A stretch of 39,169 nt of DNA from the IMG/VR virus record IMGVR_UViG_3300015245_000718, positions 1 to 39,169 of that record. The stretch is one strand, 5' to 3'. The DNA is from a virus. Position 1 is the stretch's first letter. Each line of letters starts with the position of its first letter. The position numbers were made by a program, and so were the translations under genes. The notes beneath the pieces were generated by a model. That model was given only the letters and a program-made list of their open reading frames with translations. It was not told the DNA's origin and searched no databases. This document shows positions 1,745 to 39,169 of the stretch, piece after piece.

Positions 1745-3274
1745 TCATGCCGCACGTTCGGCAACCAATTCGCTGAAATTCGCGCGCACAAGAGATTCTG
1801 ATTGCACTGGCGGCACAGCATTGCCGATCATCCATACCTGATCTCTCTGGGTGAGCGGCTTGCCCTCGTACTCCGGGTCAAGCACGTAAGCATCTGGCAG
1901 GCTCGTAGCCCTGGCGAGTTCGCGTGGTACGAGCATTCGCATGCCGATATCGGTGATCACATAGGGCTCACCATCAACTTCTACGGTGACCAACCCGAAG
2001 CGGTGTTTCGTAGTAACCGTGCCTAATGGCGATTCAAGGCGAGGGTCCTGGTCGGTTCCGTAGTATTTGATCAAGAAAGCGTGGACGAGGGCGTGATGGT
2101 CCTTCGTCGTGATCGTGAACATGGGCGAGCGCAGGTCGGAGCCATCGTTCTCGTGTCCGCCGTAGTGACGCGCGAGGAACGCGGCCACCAGCGCACCCTG
2201 ACTGCCTTTCGCTGTGATCGTCGGATAGGGCTGCTCGATATCGCGGACGCGCGGGGCTTGCCCTTTGCGTTCGCCGTTGCGTGTGTTGATCAGAGTCGGG
2301 GAGATCAGCGCGAAATGTCCGCCCTTGACATTCGCGCACAGCGTGCGTAACGGCTCGTCGGCGCGGAAGTTCCGTTGACTCGAGGCATTCGCATGCTCAG
2401 TCAAGAACGGCATGACGAGCGCATGATGAGTGCCGGACGCGCTCACCGTGCGCAGCGGCTCAGCGAGCCTGCTTGCGCTTCGATCGATATGGGAACCATC
2501 CGTGCCGCGCATCGTGACGATGAAGGGTGCCGGGTTGTTGACTACGTATCGCATGATCCCGCGCGCGATACGTCGCATGGTTGCCTCTACCAATGGGCGC
2601 TTGCGCTCGAAGATAGAGGGGCACGGAATTGACCAGTCAATGCATTGAGCCGCAGTTCGATAGGGACTGGCTCCGGGGCCGTGTGAGGCTTCCGGAAACA
2701 CGATCTCCTCGCCATCGCTCCGCGCGATCACAAACAGTCGTTTGCGCGACGTCGGTGCGCCGTAGTCGCAGGCACGCAGTTCGCGCATATCGACCTGGTA
2801 ACCAAGATTCTCGATCATCCGATGCCAGCGGCGGAATGTCTGCCCGCGTCGCACCGGGTCAGGCTTGCCGTTATCGAGTAACGGACCCCAATCGGCGAAT
2901 TCCTCGACGTTCTCCAGCATTATGATGCGTGGGCGCCTGACTTTAGCCCAGTGAACGACGCTCCAGGCGAGTCCGCGGATGCGCCTGGCGCGATTGCGGT
3001 CACGGAACGGTTTGCCGCCACGCGCCTTCGAGTGGAAGGTGCAATCCGGGGAGAACCAGGCGAGCCCCACGGGTGAGCCGCGCCCCACGCGACGCGGATC
3101 GAGGCTGCGAATATCTTCGTGCCAATGATGCGTGTACGGATGATTTGCCTTGTGGACCGCGAGCGCCTTGGCATTGTGATTGATCGCATGATCTACCGGA
3201 CGACCGAGCGCCCACTCGATGCCGGTAGATGCCCCGCCACCGCAAGCGAAATTATCTACGACGATTTCACTCAT
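1745..3274 (-). CDS. DNA (cytosine-5) methyltransferase
   Basis: The 509-residue protein transfers a methyl group from S-adenosylmethionine to cytosine C5. Motif I is seen as NFACGGGAS (8-16). The motif IV catalytic cysteine is Cys78 in FSPDCTFHS, a P-D-C variant of the usual P-P-C. Motif VI is ENVEEF (121-126). The C-terminal part carries motif IX/X-like sequence (IGNAVPP). A lone phage enzyme without an endonuclease probably protects phage DNA from host restriction or alters expression; the recognition site cannot be read. Its ATG overlaps the stop of the upstream 30-codon gene as ATGA. Confidence 0.9.
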   Translation of the reverse strand: MSEIVVDNFACGGGASTGIEWALGRPVDHAINHNAKALAVHKANHPYTHHWHEDIRSLDPRRVGRGSPVGLAWFSPDCTFHSKARGGKPFRDRNRARRIRGLAWSVVHWAKVRRPRIIMLENVEEFADWGPLLDNGKPDPVRRGQTFRRWHRMIENLGYQVDMRELRACDYGAPTSRKRLFVIARSDGEEIVFPEASHGPGASPYRTAAQCIDWSIPCPSIFERKRPLVEATMRRIARGIMRYVVNNPAPFIVTMRGTDGSHIDRSASRLAEPLRTVSASGTHHALVMPFLTEHANASSQRNFRADEPLRTLCANVKGGHFALISPTLINTRNGERKGQAPRVRDIEQPYPTITAKGSQGALVAAFLARHYGGHENDGSDLRSPMFTITTKDHHALVHAFLIKYYGTDQDPRLESPLGTVTTKHRFGLVTVEVDGEPYVITDIGMRMLVPRELARATSLPDAYVLDPEYEGKPLTQRDQVWMIGNAVPPVQSESLVRANFSELVAERAA

Positions 3275-5197: not shown

Positions 5198-5537
5198 GGC
5201 TGCTCGATCGGAGTTGGACCACATTGCCCGTACGCGCATGCAGCGCAGCACGGAACTTGGCATTAGGACGATTGGCGACGCACGCATTGCGGACATGCCT
5301 CGCGAGGCGCATCTGAAACGCGCGGAAGATGTCGATGCCGGCGCCGGAGAGTTCGCCGCGCAGGTCGGGGAATACGTAGCGCAACCGCGAGGCGCGTTCC
5401 CAGCGCAGCCGCAATTCGATGTTGCGAAGCTGATCGGTGCGAAAGATCGGATGCAGATCATCGACGCTGCGGCAGAGGACGGATAGCCACTCGGCTTTTG
5501 CGCGTTCAATGACGGTGCGGATGGGATCGTCGCTCAC
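5181..5537 (-). CDS. Hypothetical early phage protein
   Basis: The 118-residue frame starts with GTG at 5537, which overlaps the preceding stop as GTGA, the same junction type as elsewhere in this operon. An ATG 21 nt upstream (5558) is the alternative. The protein is basic and helical, with RDQL/LRLRWERASRL-type amphipathic stretches and no motif I recognise. Lying between two well-supported small genes, it is probably real. Confidence 0.55.
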   Translation of the reverse strand: MSDDPIRTVIERAKAEWLSVLCRSVDDLHPIFRTDQLRNIELRLRWERASRLRYVFPDLRGELSGAGIDIFRAFQMRLARHVRNACVANRPNAKFRAALHARTGNVVQLRSSSHGRGR

Positions 5538-5782
5538 GCGTCCCTCGTCTCGAGCCATGCCTGGTCGACTTGGGCGTTGAACGAAGCCTCGCGCGCTCTC
5601 ATGGCCTCGTACTCCTGGTACGCGAAGTCATTCAGTTCCTCATGGAACTTGTCGAGGAAGTCGTGGATCAGTCGCGCTGAATTCATTGCCGCCCATCCGC
5701 TCGCCTGACCTTCGAGTCCATCGAACAGCGCTTCCGGGATCAGCGGGTAACGCGCGCGGCGTGTGATCGGCACGGCGTTCAT
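5534..5782 (-). CDS. Hypothetical helical protein
   Basis: The 82-residue protein begins MNAVPITRRARYPL and is predominantly alpha-helical and acidic in its second half (DKFHEELNDFAYQEYEAM). The ATG at 5782 forms an ATGA overlap with the stop of the upstream small membrane protein, which fixes the start; longer upstream readings overlap that gene. No family recognised. It ends in a GTGA overlap with the next gene. Confidence 0.65.
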   Translation of the reverse strand: MNAVPITRRARYPLIPEALFDGLEGQASGWAAMNSARLIHDFLDKFHEELNDFAYQEYEAMRAREASFNAQVDQAWLETRDA

Positions 5783-5919
5783 CGCTTGTCCTTCGCCATC
5801 GATGCGATCACGCGCCCGAAGACGGATACGAGCGCACCGGCCAGCAGAAAGTAAAATGCGATGGCACCGAGCCACACCAGCAACACCGCGAAATCATGAG
5901 AGAGAGTGGTGAGGCTCAC
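5779..5919 (-). CDS. Small single-span membrane protein (46 aa, GTG start)
   Basis: The frame starts with GTG at 5919 (GTGA overlap with the upstream stop) and ends in an ATGA overlap with the downstream ATG. These two junctions support it despite its size. Residues about 9-34 are strongly hydrophobic (FAVLLVWLGAIAFYFLLAGA), followed by a basic tail ending in AKDKR, so the C-terminus should be cytoplasmic. Small early membrane proteins of phages often affect host membrane functions or superinfection, but nothing specific can be read here. Confidence 0.65.
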   Translation of the reverse strand: MSLTTLSHDFAVLLVWLGAIAFYFLLAGALVSVFGRVIASMAKDKR

Positions 5920-6056
5920 GACCGCACCGGCTTTGCAGGTGTCGACAATTCGACGCTCTCAATATGGCGACCGAGATCCGGTTGCCAGATAAAGCGTATG
6001 ACCACGCGGCAGCCCAGGTGGGTGAAGTAGGAAATCTGTTCGTTTGGTGTGCTCAT
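5916..6056 (-). CDS. Hypothetical protein, 46 aa
   Basis: The frame starts MSTPNEQISYFTHLG and contains a short beta-rich stretch (CRVVIRFIWQPDLGRHIESVEL). The ATG at 6056 overlaps the preceding stop as ATGA and the stop overlaps the next start as GTGA. No known family. The longer open frame upstream overlaps the first gene of the operon and is not expected to be used. Confidence 0.6.
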   Translation of the reverse strand: MSTPNEQISYFTHLGCRVVIRFIWQPDLGRHIESVELSTPAKPVRS

Positions 6057-6259
6057 CGTGATTCCCTTGTGCGCCCTCCAGCGGCAACCTGCATCGGACG
6101 TGGTAGGGCAACGCCGATCACTTCCTCGTGTTGGCGGCGCAAGTCCTGAATGGCGAGCGCATCCTTCAGCGCCCGCTCTTGGGCGGCTCTCATTGCGGCT
6201 GCAATGCGCTCCTCGAAAGAGCAATCTGGGCAGGAACAGCACATGACGGTTAGGACCAT
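6053..6259 (-). CDS. First gene of leftward operon, CxC/C-rich N-terminus
   Basis: The 68-residue protein starts MVLTVMCCSCPDCSFEERI. The four cysteines in the first 14 residues could bind a metal, and the rest is a helical, possibly coiled-coil stretch. The chosen ATG at 6259 lies exactly 7 nt after the -10 box of PL and has no ribosome-binding site, so the mRNA would be leaderless. An in-frame ATG at the MCCSC position (6244) is an alternative start. It ends in an ATGA overlap with the next gene. Confidence 0.6.
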   Translation of the reverse strand: MVLTVMCCSCPDCSFEERIAAAMRAAQERALKDALAIQDLRRQHEEVIGVALPRPMQVAAGGRTRESR

Positions 6260-6309
6260 GTGCGGGAGTATATACAAGCATTATTGTTGCGGTCAACAAG
6301 TTTGCTTGT
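6257..6309 (-). promoter_or_regulatory. Leftward early promoter PL with two operators
   Basis: On the minus strand TTGACC (-35, 6291-6296) and TATACT (-10, 6267-6272) are 18 bp apart, and the first ATG follows 7 nt later. A dyad ACAATAATGCTTGT (6274-6287) fills the spacer, and a second, ACAAGCAAACTTGT (6296-6309), lies at the upstream edge of the -35 box; their centres are 22 bp apart. The first copy has an almost identical counterpart at PR. A repressor bound here would block RNA polymerase. Confidence 0.8.
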
Positions 6310-6357
6310 GCATGGTTGCGCACGCGCAGGCTGCGCTCAAAACCTCGGGCGCAGAAA

Positions 6358-7158
6358 CTATCGGGGCGTTAGCCTGAAGTAGATGCCGGTTTGCTGAGGT
6401 CTGTTGATGGCGAGAAGGATCAGAGTGGCCTGTTGGCCATTGCTGCCTGGGATCAGCCAGGCGCTGCCGATGTACTGGCCTTCTTCTATGAAGCGCAGCG
6501 TCGCGCCGCAGTTGAACGCTGATATGTTCAGGGCGTAAATCGACATACCATCGGTACGTTCGGATAGCTGACCGTCGAAGCGACAGCCGTTCGTGTCGAA
6601 TCCTGTGAGCAGACCTACTACGTCGATATCAATCTGTGCGCTGTAATCGATGTTATTACTGCCATCCGTGGTGAACGGAATGATGTCGCGGTACTGCCAA
6701 TTCCGTTGAATTGTGGCTAGCGGTGGTGCGTTTGTGCTTCTGGAAAACAATCTCACTCCATCGCCAAACCAATCGGTCGATGTCATGGATTTCTGTACGC
6801 GGATGTTTCTTTGTTCGGCCGGCGGATGAGCGCCGGGTGAATGTGATATTGGCTGTGGCAAGCCACCAAGCGCTAGTTGGTTGAGGATGAGCACCGCATC
6901 ACTGCCAGAGATCCTCCACGTACCAAATCCAAGGTGCAAAATCCCGCTAAATACAGCCTCTCCGTTTGGCTCGATGACCATCTCGCCAGCTTCAATTACC
7001 GCGTTGTTGGCGCTGATTTCCAGGTCGTAAAGACCTGCTGGCGGTATGGAGCCTGTAGGCTGTGAAGGCGGTGGTGGACTTTGTATTGGGGTATCGTGCG
7101 ATCCGCCGCCGCAGGCCAAGAGCGCACAATATGCGAGAGCAACAAGCGTGCGTTTCAC
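6358..7158 (-). CDS. Lipoprotein co-expressed with the repressor (lysogenic conversion candidate)
   Basis: The 266-residue protein has a type II signal peptide with lipobox LLAC (Cys16) and then a low-complexity proline/serine linker (residues about 24-36). The rest is beta-rich with two cysteines near the C-terminal third that may pair. The GTG start overlaps the repressor stop as GTGA, so it should be made in lysogens from the repressor promoter. Lipoproteins in this position in other temperate phages can mediate superinfection exclusion or alter the host surface; that role is inference here. No family recognised. Confidence 0.75.
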   Translation of the reverse strand: MKRTLVALAYCALLACGGGSHDTPIQSPPPPSQPTGSIPPAGLYDLEISANNAVIEAGEMVIEPNGEAVFSGILHLGFGTWRISGSDAVLILNQLALGGLPQPISHSPGAHPPAEQRNIRVQKSMTSTDWFGDGVRLFSRSTNAPPLATIQRNWQYRDIIPFTTDGSNNIDYSAQIDIDVVGLLTGFDTNGCRFDGQLSERTDGMSIYALNISAFNCGATLRFIEEGQYIGSAWLIPGSNGQQATLILLAINRPQQTGIYFRLTPR

Positions 7159-7631
7159 TTGTCAACGAGCTCCGGATGATCGGCAATCAGCTTCGCCGTA
7201 ATCTTTTCGGCTGCGCGGTTGAACTGCCCATTGCTCGCGCGCATGGAGACAGCAACGGTCTGGACGATGCTGCGCAGCGTGAATTGCCAATGATGGGGTA
7301 GCTCACGAAATGCCTGCATAAACGCGAGATCGTTGTGGTCTTGGCTCGACATTGGGCCGCGTGATCCTTTCTCCTCTCGCATCGGACCGATGCCGTAGGC
7401 GAGCCATAACGGATGGACGTTGAGCGCCGCAGCAATGATTGGCGTGTATTTCGACGCCTTGCGCTGGTCGTTGAGAATCTGATTTAGAATCTGCTGGCTG
7501 ATCTTCGGCCCGCCAATCTTGCCGCACGCGTTAAGTAGATCCTTCTCACTCATCGTATCCGACATTGCGGTCCAGCAACGACCGCCGATCGTCTTCTCAT
7601 CTTTCCTGCCACGCGCCGACTTGCCAGCCAT
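7155..7631 (-). CDS. CI-like repressor without peptidase domain
   Basis: The 158-residue protein has an XRE-type helix-turn-helix at about 28-80 (KISQQILNQILNDQRKASKY ... ALNVHPLWLAYG), the form found in many phage repressors. The C-terminal half is helical and lacks the Ser-Lys peptidase motifs of LexA/CI, so RecA-stimulated self-cleavage is not expected. Induction may use another route. It is divergent from cro across an operator region. ATG 7631 was chosen because a weak promoter ends 8 nt upstream; a TTG at 7688 and an ATG at 7565 are alternatives. Confidence 0.8.
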   Translation of the reverse strand: MAGKSARGRKDEKTIGGRCWTAMSDTMSEKDLLNACGKIGGPKISQQILNQILNDQRKASKYTPIIAAALNVHPLWLAYGIGPMREEKGSRGPMSSQDHNDLAFMQAFRELPHHWQFTLRSIVQTVAVSMRASNGQFNRAAEKITAKLIADHPELVDK

Positions 7632-7639
7632 GAGGGGAC

Positions 7640-7702
7640 AGTACAAGAGCGCTTGTTGACTGTCATACAACGATACGGGTTGACTCAAACAATAATCCTT
7701 GT
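7640..7702. promoter_or_regulatory. Right operator region between repressor and cro
   Basis: Two copies of ACAA-N6-TTGT occur: ACAAGAGCGCTTGT (7643-7656) and ACAATAATCCTTGT (7689-7702). A weaker dyad CAAC-N7-GTTG (7668-7671/7679-7682) lies between them. The right copy sits inside the PR spacer; the left copy overlaps a possible repressor promoter on the minus strand (TTGTAT, 19 bp, TGTACT at 7640-7645). This layout allows repression of PR and autoregulation of the repressor, as in lambda OR. Confidence 0.7.
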
Positions 7703-7719
7703 GTAAAATCCGTCACATG
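7679..7719 (+). promoter_or_regulatory. Rightward early promoter PR, leaderless start
   Basis: TTGACT (7680-7685) and TAAAAT (7704-7709) are 18 bp apart, and the cro ATG begins 7 nt after the -10 box. No Shine-Dalgarno sequence precedes the ATG, so transcription probably starts at or next to the A of the start codon. The 41-bp block is 78% identical (32 of 41) to the PL block. Confidence 0.8.
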
Positions 7720-7962
7720 CCAAAGCGACATGTGACCGCCCTGAAGCGCGCGATTGAGATCGCTGGCGGTCAAGCCAAGCTCGCCGCCGCAATCCGCGAG
7801 GACATGGATCGACCTAGCGTCAGTCAGCAAACCATCTCCTATTGGCTGCGCAATGAAAGCCTCATCGAGGCGGAGTGGTGGCCGGCCATCGAGCGTGTCA
7901 CTGAAAATAAAGTCACACGCAAAGATTTGCGGCCTGATGTGTTCGGCAAACAGGCTGCCTGA
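7717..7962 (+). CDS. Cro/YdaS-family regulator
   Basis: The 81-residue protein has a helix-turn-helix (GGQAKLAAAIRE ... SVSQQTISYWLRN) followed by PAIERVTENKVTRKDLRPDVF, a signature of Cro/YdaS-like phage regulators. It is the first gene of the rightward early operon, divergent from the repressor, and should bind the shared operators to shut down the repressor promoter. The ATG at 7717 was chosen over an upstream TTG because it matches the expected transcription start and the family N-terminus. Confidence 0.85.
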   Translation: MPKRHVTALKRAIEIAGGQAKLAAAIREDMDRPSVSQQTISYWLRNESLIEAEWWPAIERVTENKVTRKDLRPDVFGKQAA

Positions 7963-8004
7963 GAGCACTTACTTGTTCTTACCTTTTCCATGTAAGGCCA
8001 AGTA

Positions 8005-8400
8005 ATGATCTCGCAACACGACTTATTCCATGACTCGATTCTTGATGCTATCGGGGCCGATGTGGCTGCAGCTGGCGGCTTCAAGAAAGTCGCTACGCGT
8101 CTATGGCCATCTATGGAACCGACTCTCGCCGCGCAGAAATTGCGATCCTGTTTGAATGCAGATCACTCGCAGAAACTCGATATCGAAGAATTGCTGCTGA
8201 TCAAGGCTCTCGCCAAAGAGACCGGTTCTCAAGCCACGATAAGCTACGAAGCACAGCAGCTCGGCTTCGCTGTGACCTGGCTCGAGCCGGACGATGAGCG
8301 CAGCTCGCTCGACCGTCGCATTGCCGACGGAATTGAAAGCCTCAACAAGTTACTCGGCCACCGAGAGCGCAAGTTCGGCCCGCTGGCGGTGGCTAAATGA
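8005..8400 (+). CDS. CII-like phage regulatory protein
   Basis: The 131-residue protein fits the phage regulatory protein CII family: SQHDLFHDSILDAIGADVAA, then a helical DNA-binding part (FKKVATRLWPSMEPTLAAQKLRSCL) and the conserved LDIEELLLIKALAKE stretch. It lies second in the rightward operon after cro, the position of lambda cII. It is expected to activate repressor or integrase transcription when lysogeny is chosen. AAGG 7 nt upstream of the ATG is a ribosome-binding site. Confidence 0.75.
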   Translation: MISQHDLFHDSILDAIGADVAAAGGFKKVATRLWPSMEPTLAAQKLRSCLNADHSQKLDIEELLLIKALAKETGSQATISYEAQQLGFAVTWLEPDDERSSLDRRIADGIESLNKLLGHRERKFGPLAVAK

Positions 8401-8464
8401 TCAATGGCGCATCCGTACCGCACGCCATGGCGGTGCTCCAGAGAACTGGAGCTGCGCCAACCCG

Positions 8465-8791
8465 ATGACTACGCAGCTCGATTTGCTCGCCGACTATCCC
8501 CGCGCTCGGCGCAGCGATCCAGAAACGTCGCACGAAGCTGCCGAACGCATCAAGTCAAACGGCAACCTGAGCCGCCAGCAACACGCTGCGCTCGCGCTCG
8601 TTCGCTGTCACCCTGGGTCAACGACGTGGGAACTCGCTGAATACCAGTCGCGCGAGAGGGGTGAAAACGTATTCCATGCTGAGCGCTGGATCGGGCGTCG
8701 GTTGGGTGAACTTGAGCCGATTCATATATCGAAAGGCACGCCAAGGATTGTGCGCGGACGATCTGCGCATGCGTGGTGGGCTAATCGATAG
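8465..8791 (+). CDS. Winged-helix-type early phage protein
   Basis: The 108-residue protein starts MTTQLDLLADYPRARRSDPETSHEAA and continues with a helical region (SRQQHAALALVRCHPGSTTWELA) that looks like a winged helix, ending in a GRSAHAWW tail. The 'DPETSHEAA' opening is frequent in small phage proteins near replication genes. The start was placed at this ATG because the upstream in-frame part overlaps the CII-like gene and is not protein-like. Function unknown. Confidence 0.65.
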   Translation: MTTQLDLLADYPRARRSDPETSHEAAERIKSNGNLSRQQHAALALVRCHPGSTTWELAEYQSRERGENVFHAERWIGRRLGELEPIHISKGTPRIVRGRSAHAWWANR

Positions 8792-8807
8792 CTTCGAATG
8801 AATTCAG

Positions 8808-8827
8808 TGTCCCGTCGCCTCGGGACA
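8808..8827 (+). promoter_or_regulatory. Hairpin after the winged-helix gene
   Basis: TGTCCCG (8808-8814) pairs perfectly with CGGGACA (8821-8827) around a 6-nt loop. No T-run follows, so it is not a classical terminator. It may slow or process the early transcript. Confidence 0.4.
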
Positions 8828-8910
8828 TAAATATCCGGGCGCGCCTCAGGGGGGATGCTTCCCGCAGCAAGGCGAAAACTTAAGTGCTGCGCAGGCTGAT
8901 TGGGCTCACG

Positions 8911-8995
8911 CGGGTGTAAGCCACGCGAACTCAACTCTCGGCGATGCCGTAGGGGTAAGGGGTTCGTGTGGGTCTACGGGGTGTAAGGGGTAGAT
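8911..8995 (+). repeat. G-rich direct repeats upstream of the replication gene
   Basis: The non-coding stretch holds TAAGGGGT at 8956-8963 and 8984-8991, with related GGGTGTAAG and TAGGGGTAAGG units around them. The repeats are 28 bp apart. They lie directly before a replication-type gene and could be binding sites for it (an origin), or may only provide ribosome-binding purines for the GTG start. Confidence 0.35.
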
Positions 8996-8999
8996 AAGA

Positions 9000-9410
9000 G
9001 TGAAGAGAGGAGAGACTTTTCTTCCGGAGTTCTTCCAACTCTCGGAGTCTACGTGCACTTGGCTATCACAGAGATATCCAGCCATCGACGGCGGCGAAAC
9101 GCTCGCGATTTTCTGCGACAAGGCTCTGGCTCGCGGCTGGCGGTATCGGGATTGGCAAGCCGCATTTCGCAACTACATCCGAAATGCCATGCGTTTCGGC
9201 GGCGTCGCCTACAAGCAGATTGCACGAGACATGGACCCGAAGTGGCAGACGGTATTGCACGAGGCACGCAAGGCCGGGTTTCGCGAGCCGCGCGAGCTAG
9301 AGACACCAGGCGGCTATCGAACGGAGCTTGAGCAGTGGCAACGCGATCCGCAGCGACGAAATGTGCTGACTCTGCGCGCACAAAGCGTATTGAAGCGCGT
9401 GCCTCACTGA
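9000..9410 (+). CDS. Phage replication-type protein (C-terminal domain like)
   Basis: The 136-residue protein starts with GTG and contains DKALARGWRYRDWQAAFRNYIRNAMR, a pattern typical of the C-terminal part of phage origin-binding/helicase-loader proteins. It is shorter than a full O-like protein (about 250-300 residues), so it may represent only that domain. AAGGGG lies upstream of the GTG. Its place after the CII-like gene and the G-rich repeats fits a replication role, but no partner helicase is present in the prophage. Confidence 0.6.
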   Translation: MKRGETFLPEFFQLSESTCTWLSQRYPAIDGGETLAIFCDKALARGWRYRDWQAAFRNYIRNAMRFGGVAYKQIARDMDPKWQTVLHEARKAGFREPRELETPGGYRTELEQWQRDPQRRNVLTLRAQSVLKRVPH

Positions 9411-38413: not shown

Positions 38414-39169
38414 TCAGATTCTGTACTTCAGAACGATATTTGAGACCAAGTCATCCACGAAGTCGATGACCTTAGGTGGCTTTATCGTGATGCCCGAAGG
38501 ATGAGCCGAGGAATTCCTCGTCCCAAGCTTTTCGTCAAGGATTTTTCGAACGTCGTTGGAAATGACGTTCGCGGAGCGCGTGAACTCGATAAGCTTGTTT
38601 TCCGGAATGTCGCTGAAATCATCGCGCGTAGTGATGCCCGTTACCTTGACGCGCTTGTCGGTGTTCTTGCCGAGAGCGACGTTGAAGGCGGTCAGATGGT
38701 GCGCCATCACGTAAGATATCAGATGGTCTATCGCGAGAATCCAGCACATGACAATCGTCGCGCGGTTCGCGCCGATTTCGAAGCAGTCGATGGTTTCCTT
38801 CAAGAAGTCCTTCGCGGGTCCCGGGCTCATCTTCGCTTCAAGCTTGCGGGGCTCGGCGTTCGCCTGAACGACGACATGCTCCGCGCCAAGCTGTTTTGAC
38901 AACTGCTCGCGGTAGTGGTGCTGGAGCCTGTAGCCTCCTTCGGCCTTGACGTACATCCCTTCGGTCACGCCCTCGGAGAGGAACTGCGCGGTTCTCGTCG
39001 GCGGCGTCAGGTCACACGCCGTGAAGCAGGCGTCCACGCCCTTGCGCGAGGCCGTTGGTTCCTGCAGCTCGACGGTCAGGTAATAGACAAAGAGCCCGAC
39101 CAGCTCCCTTGGTGGCAGTTGGTCGGGGTTTTCAACCGAGGCATAGAACCGCTTCGCACCCTCGCTCAC
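38414..39169 (-). CDS. HEPN-like host protein, possibly partial
   Basis: The frame reaches the end of the window (GTG at the very edge), so its start may lie beyond it; 251 residues are visible. The protein is helical. Near the C-terminus it has TRNSSAHPSG with Arg218 and His223, the R-x4-H ribonuclease motif of HEPN domains, preceded by the helix VISNDVRKILDEKLG. HEPN proteins are often RNA-cleaving toxins or defence proteins. The call rests on this motif and the helical pattern. Confidence 0.6.
   Translation of the reverse strand: MSEGAKRFYASVENPDQLPPRELVGLFVYYLTVELQEPTASRKGVDACFTACDLTPPTRTAQFLSEGVTEGMYVKAEGGYRLQHHYREQLSKQLGAEHVVVQANAEPRKLEAKMSPGPAKDFLKETIDCFEIGANRATIVMCWILAIDHLISYVMAHHLTAFNVALGKNTDKRVKVTGITTRDDFSDIPENKLIEFTRSANVISNDVRKILDEKLGTRNSSAHPSGITIKPPKVIDFVDDLVSNIVLKYRI

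Follow-up and report, generated by a model that had tools for sequence, protein, structure and literature searches.

Predicted leaderless cro and cI, and a plausibly leaderless PL gene, in a lambdoid immunity region with a YdaS-type Cro

The immunity region analysed here raises the question of which of its promoters produce messages that begin at the start codon itself. The lambda cI message transcribed from PRM is leaderless, and accounts of lambdoid phages usually present leaderless translation as a peculiarity of cI. For this phage, a preliminary description of the window (the whole stretch of 39,169 nucleotides) had claimed instead that both divergent lytic promoters, PL and PR, share a 41-bp block and give leaderless messages, a combination that it judged unusual.

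The region is a lambdoid temperate phage immunity region with 434-like operators and a YdaS-type Cro (Table 1). The repressor gene is divergent from cro, a cII-type gene comes next, and repeated operators are found at PL as well as at PR. Cro scored 65.7 bits against PF15943 (YdaS/Cro), whose curated cut-off is 30, which places it in this family. A self-cleaving CI with an S24 protease domain is typical but not universal for lambdoid regions; a profile search of the 158-aa repressor detected neither a protease domain nor any Pfam domain. For a short repressor of this kind, RecA-stimulated cleavage may not be the induction route. A putative lipoprotein gene, for which no Pfam or PHROG match was found, sits between cI and PL. 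Since its start overlaps the stop of cI, the two genes are likely co-transcribed and expressed in the lysogen, and the location is reminiscent of rex in lambda or of superinfection-exclusion genes. No named phage was matched by BLAST with the immunity region, CI or CII, and none has a large terminase closer than about 50% identity; single-sequence searches of viral contigs mostly found no relatives. Elsewhere in the window, on the minus strand, lie a phage DNA methyltransferase gene (1745-3274; PHROG 116, E 5e-88) and a 251-aa open reading frame (38414-39169) that runs to the right end of the record.

Table 1. Predicted genes, promoters and operators of the immunity region (positions in the window)
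Feature	Position	Strand	Description	Basis or score
Second leftward ORF	5916..6056	-	46 aa; SD-like AAGGG before ATG	sequence
First leftward ORF	6053..6259	-	68 aa; Cys-rich N-terminus; starts at PL ATG	open frame
PL promoter	6267..6296	-	TTGACC (6296-6291), 18-nt spacer, TATACT (6272-6267)	12.4 bits; 7 nt before ATG
OL1 operator	6274..6287	-	ACAATAATGCTTGT; inside PL spacer	palindrome match
OL2 operator	6296..6309	-	ACAAGCAAACTTGT; 1-nt overlap with PL -35	palindrome match
Putative lipoprotein gene	6358..7158	-	266 aa; lipobox LLAC; GTG start	overlaps cI stop (GTGA)
cI-type repressor gene	7155..7631	-	158 aa	weak matches to PHROG transcriptional repressors
PRM promoter	7638..7666	-	ATGACA (7666-7661), 17-nt spacer, TACTGT (7643-7638), 6 nt to cI ATG	7.3 bits
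OR3 operator	7643..7656	+	ACAAGAGCGCTTGT; fills PRM spacer	palindrome match
Putative degenerate OR2	7667..7680	+	ACAACGATACGGGT	6/8 specified bases; spacing 24 and 22
PR promoter	7680..7709	+	TTGACT (7680-7685), 18-nt spacer, TAAAAT (7704-7709)	13.5 bits; 7 nt before ATG
OR1 operator	7689..7702	+	ACAATAATCCTTGT; inside PR spacer	palindrome match
cro	7717..7962	+	81 aa; YdaS family; predicted leaderless start at 7717	PF15943, E 3.2e-18
cII-like regulator gene	8005..8400	+	131 aa	phrog_24214, E 1.2e-21; phrog_101 CII-like, E 5e-6

The shared block is real. The minus strand at 6297-6257 and the plus strand at 7679-7719 share 32 of their 41 bases (P about 6e-12 for a single comparison). When the PL block was slid over both strands of the window a score of 32 was reached only at 7679, the next best being 26 and 23. 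PL reads TTGACC-18-TATACT-7-ATG and PR reads TTGACT-18-TAAAAT-7-ATG; as previously described, the -10 box ends 7 nt before the ATG at both, and an SD-like motif is absent upstream of either. A sigma70-like promoter scanner run over positions 5500-9200 returned PL and PR as its sole two matches, with 1.8 matches expected from shuffles, so that the scan by itself is no proof. The ten bases that follow the -10 box (CCCGCACATG at PL and CCGTCACATG at PR) agree at eight positions (P 5.6e-4), and the likeness crosses the ATG before falling to 5/40 beyond it. Similarity had been said to stop at the start codon and before the -35 box. The first of these limits holds, and the second is slightly wrong: the ungapped likeness continues upstream past the -35 box, over 53 nt at 74%, because a second operator sits there.

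Repressor operators, overlooked in the preliminary description, account for most of the shared block. The palindrome ACAA-N6-TTGT has four occurrences in the 39-kb window (0.14 expected), all of them here: two at PL and two at PR. The four predicted sites carry by sequence the pattern of what we take to be the 434-type operator, a 14-bp palindrome bound by CI and Cro. The degenerate OR2 is a putative third OR site whose spacing fits that of relatives: in L031, where every site is perfect, the OL spacing is 22 and the OR spacing 24+22, and the spacings in the window match. The same module, consisting of a -35 box, an operator in the spacer, a -10 box, 6-7 nt and an ATG, with no SD, is present at PL, PR and PRM; the operators, the geometry and its conservation across phages are evident from the sequences. 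A leadered counterpart of the module is seen in L018, L021, L023, L027 and L028, where the promoter likewise carries an operator in its spacer but lies 17-21 nt from the ATG, several of these loci having a purine-rich SD.

Comparison with other phages makes it very likely that cro of the window is leaderless from PR. Viral and genome contigs were searched with patterns of operator and promoter elements that leave out the start codon, and many phages matched; in matches with a YdaS-type cro, the ATG lies 11-15 nt past the operator (about 6-8 nt past the -10 box) and no SD is present. Many other pattern matches (e.g. L003, L004, L010) look like chance occurrences inside coding DNA and were left uncounted, and L001 was rejected as a Cro relative because its likeness is restricted to the C-terminus. 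The closest Cro relatives identified by protein search (L155, L158 and L160) are leaderless or nearly so, with 8-10 nt from the -10 box and no SD; in L155 and L160 this distance is 10 nt, and a leader of a few nucleotides is possible. As a third line of evidence, a protein profile was used to collect a sample of YdaS-Cro genes from whole genomes, and the best promoter of each was chosen by weight matrix. This promoter ends 5-9 nt before the cro ATG in 14 of 15 Xanthomonadaceae (0.81 expected from shuffles, P 2.6e-17), in 6/20 Gammaproteobacteria (P 0.0024) and in 4/7 loci from the order of the Hoeflea genome (P 0.0012), compared to 13/206 control ORFs, the P values being optimistic since the loci include kin (L065 and L069, for example, are similar) for which no adjustment was made. 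In a set of 41 cro starts, partly picked for their leaderless geometry, an SD-like 4-mer precedes one.

These results suggest that leaderless cro is a recurrent trait among related prophages, and a common one in Xanthomonadaceae with a YdaS-type Cro. Stenotrophomonas tumulicola is among the prophage carriers identified. It is not universal for YdaS Cro, as named phages of this type in Pseudomonas, Vibrio and Providencia, as well as Rac, have SD leaders. We found no survey of leaderless cro in the open-access literature. In phage PY54, the cI and cro mRNAs both begin at AUG by RACE (PMC4488713). Thus, of the earlier claim that both lytic promoters are leaderless, the part that concerns PR and cro is borne out by the comparative evidence and PL is plausible only; as for both being unusual, this is true of PL, relatives of which are leadered, and does not apply to cro, given the Xanthomonadaceae prophages and PY54.

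The cI gene of the window is likewise predicted to be leaderless from PRM, and we consider this likely. The same geometry was seen at cI in L007, L014, L038, L041, L155, L158 and L160. In the CP-933P prophage, where YdaS serves as Cro, the message of the CI analogue PaaR2 is leaderless by RACE (PMC8630535).

Leaderless PL is the unusual part, and the claim of two leaderless lytic promoters in one phage is both unusual and unproven. In relatives with a locatable leftward gene, this gene starts 29-80 nt past the operator, mostly behind an SD, whereas PL of the window lacks such a leader and the first ATG falls at the predicted transcription start. We regard a leaderless PL as plausible and somewhat more likely than not, albeit atypical compared to relatives. 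The main competing explanation, which we hold to be possible yet rather doubtful, keeps PR/cro and PRM/cI leaderless and gives PL a leader, the ATG at 6259 being a matter of chance and the first translated frame being the 46-aa ORF at 6056 with its SD-like AAGGG. The SD leaders at PL of most relatives are in line with it, as is the expectation that an ATG falls by chance 6-8 nt past the -10 box at about 3/64 per promoter, or ~0.7 times among the 15 tabulated PL promoters. Yet the likeness of PL to PR extends through CACATG in the ten bases compared above and, by eye, is absent in relatives with a leadered PL. The frame opened by this ATG tells in both directions: it runs for 68 codons without interruption, which has a chance of about 0.11, it terminates within an ATGA shared with the start of the following gene, and its middle third has a strong and typical codon-position bias, while its overall codon score is weak, similar to that of two neighbouring accessory genes, and searches for homologues returned none that were convincing.

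L016, in which an ATG lies 6 nt after both -10 boxes, was considered as a second doubly leaderless case and dropped, since an AGAAGG farther downstream may precede the true start of its PL gene. Among other relatives (L007, L158, L160, L038 and L041), a predicted hairpin pairs the SD of the first leftward gene, for instance GCCTCC...GGAGGC in L007 and CCTCCC...GGGAGG in L160; fold z-scores of the PL leaders range from -3.7 to +0.5 with hand-picked ends, and these hairpins are a lead only. Weak hairpin pairing is possible in the first bases of the 68-aa ORF of the window.

The exact position of the 5′ ends bears on a second alternative, in which very short leaders of 1-5 nt are used with ordinary 30S initiation. 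The distances of 8-10 nt in L155, L158 and L160 would accommodate such leaders, and in CACATG of the window transcription might alternatively begin with the A that lies two bases upstream of the start codon. We nevertheless consider this reading improbable. The base at -1 is a pyrimidine (C/T) in 39/41 cro starts compared to 48% of control ORFs (P 7e-11, for starts partly picked for their leaderless geometry, though not for the -1 base). This is what +1 at the A of the ATG would produce, and the typical distance from the -10 box points to that base as well; the ends mapped by RACE in PY54 fall exactly at AUG (PMC4488713). Finally, that the block is shared as operator and promoter core only, the closeness of the ATG having no role, is very improbable and already disfavoured for cro: operators do account for most of the block identity, but the protein-sampled loci mostly have operators that differ from ACAA-N6-TTGT, including the 14/15 Xanthomonadaceae in which the geometry recurs, and the leaderless geometry is therefore not the by-product of one operator.

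The explanation that we favour, and consider likely overall, is that one module is used three times, yielding leaderless cro, cI and PL ORF messages. The module would drive cro from PR and cI from PRM; in this phage it would also drive the first leftward ORF, from PL. RNA polymerase would initiate on the A of the start codon itself or no more than 1-2 nt upstream, and ribosomes would have to engage the 5′ AUG of the resulting leader-free messages. CI and Cro would compete for OR1-OR3 and OL1-OL2, a repressor bound within the spacer blocking the polymerase. The actual 5′ ends, repressor binding and leaderless translation are what we infer from these features.

Known systems share parts of this arrangement. 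Like lambda and 434, the window has cI divergent from cro-cII and operators at both PL and PR, and lambda has a leaderless cI; it differs from them by its YdaS-type Cro, its predicted leaderless cro (and probably PL gene), the two OL sites that are seen, and its repressor with no detected protease domain. The telomere phage PY54 shares cI and cro messages that both start from AUG; it differs in that its prophage is a linear plasmid, a single Cro operator, OR3, lies far from the cro promoter, and no PL counterpart is reported there (PMC4488713). The PaaR2-YdaS-YdaT region of CP-933P shares YdaS as Cro, a short CI analogue without a peptidase motif, a leaderless CI message and a PL region with related repeats, whereas other repeats serve as its operators, leaderless cro is not reported, and a toxin-antitoxin pair is carried (PMC8630535). 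The Xanthomonadaceae YdaS-Cro prophages (L035, L038, L062-L075) share a cro ATG located 6-8 nt after the -10 box with no SD, but mostly have other operators, and PL is leadered in L035 and L038, the two examined.

The surprise, then, is the recurrence of leaderless cro across prophages and not that one phage does so: the lytic regulator is predicted to be leaderless, under differing operators, in most sampled Xanthomonadaceae YdaS-type prophages and in several further lineages. This raises the question of whether the initiation mode (70S ribosome or initiation-factor status) weighs on lysis and lysogeny symmetrically for both regulators. Any coupling of early translation to ribosome state, as put forward in the preliminary description, is something that we infer. 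As a tentative proposal, which we think may well prove wrong, cI and cro might both be leaderless by selection throughout a large class of temperate phages of proteobacteria, such that the CI:Cro ratio would follow ribosome state through one initiation mode while cII and the leftward genes stay conventional; the phage studied here would add PL, placing three decision promoters under one module.
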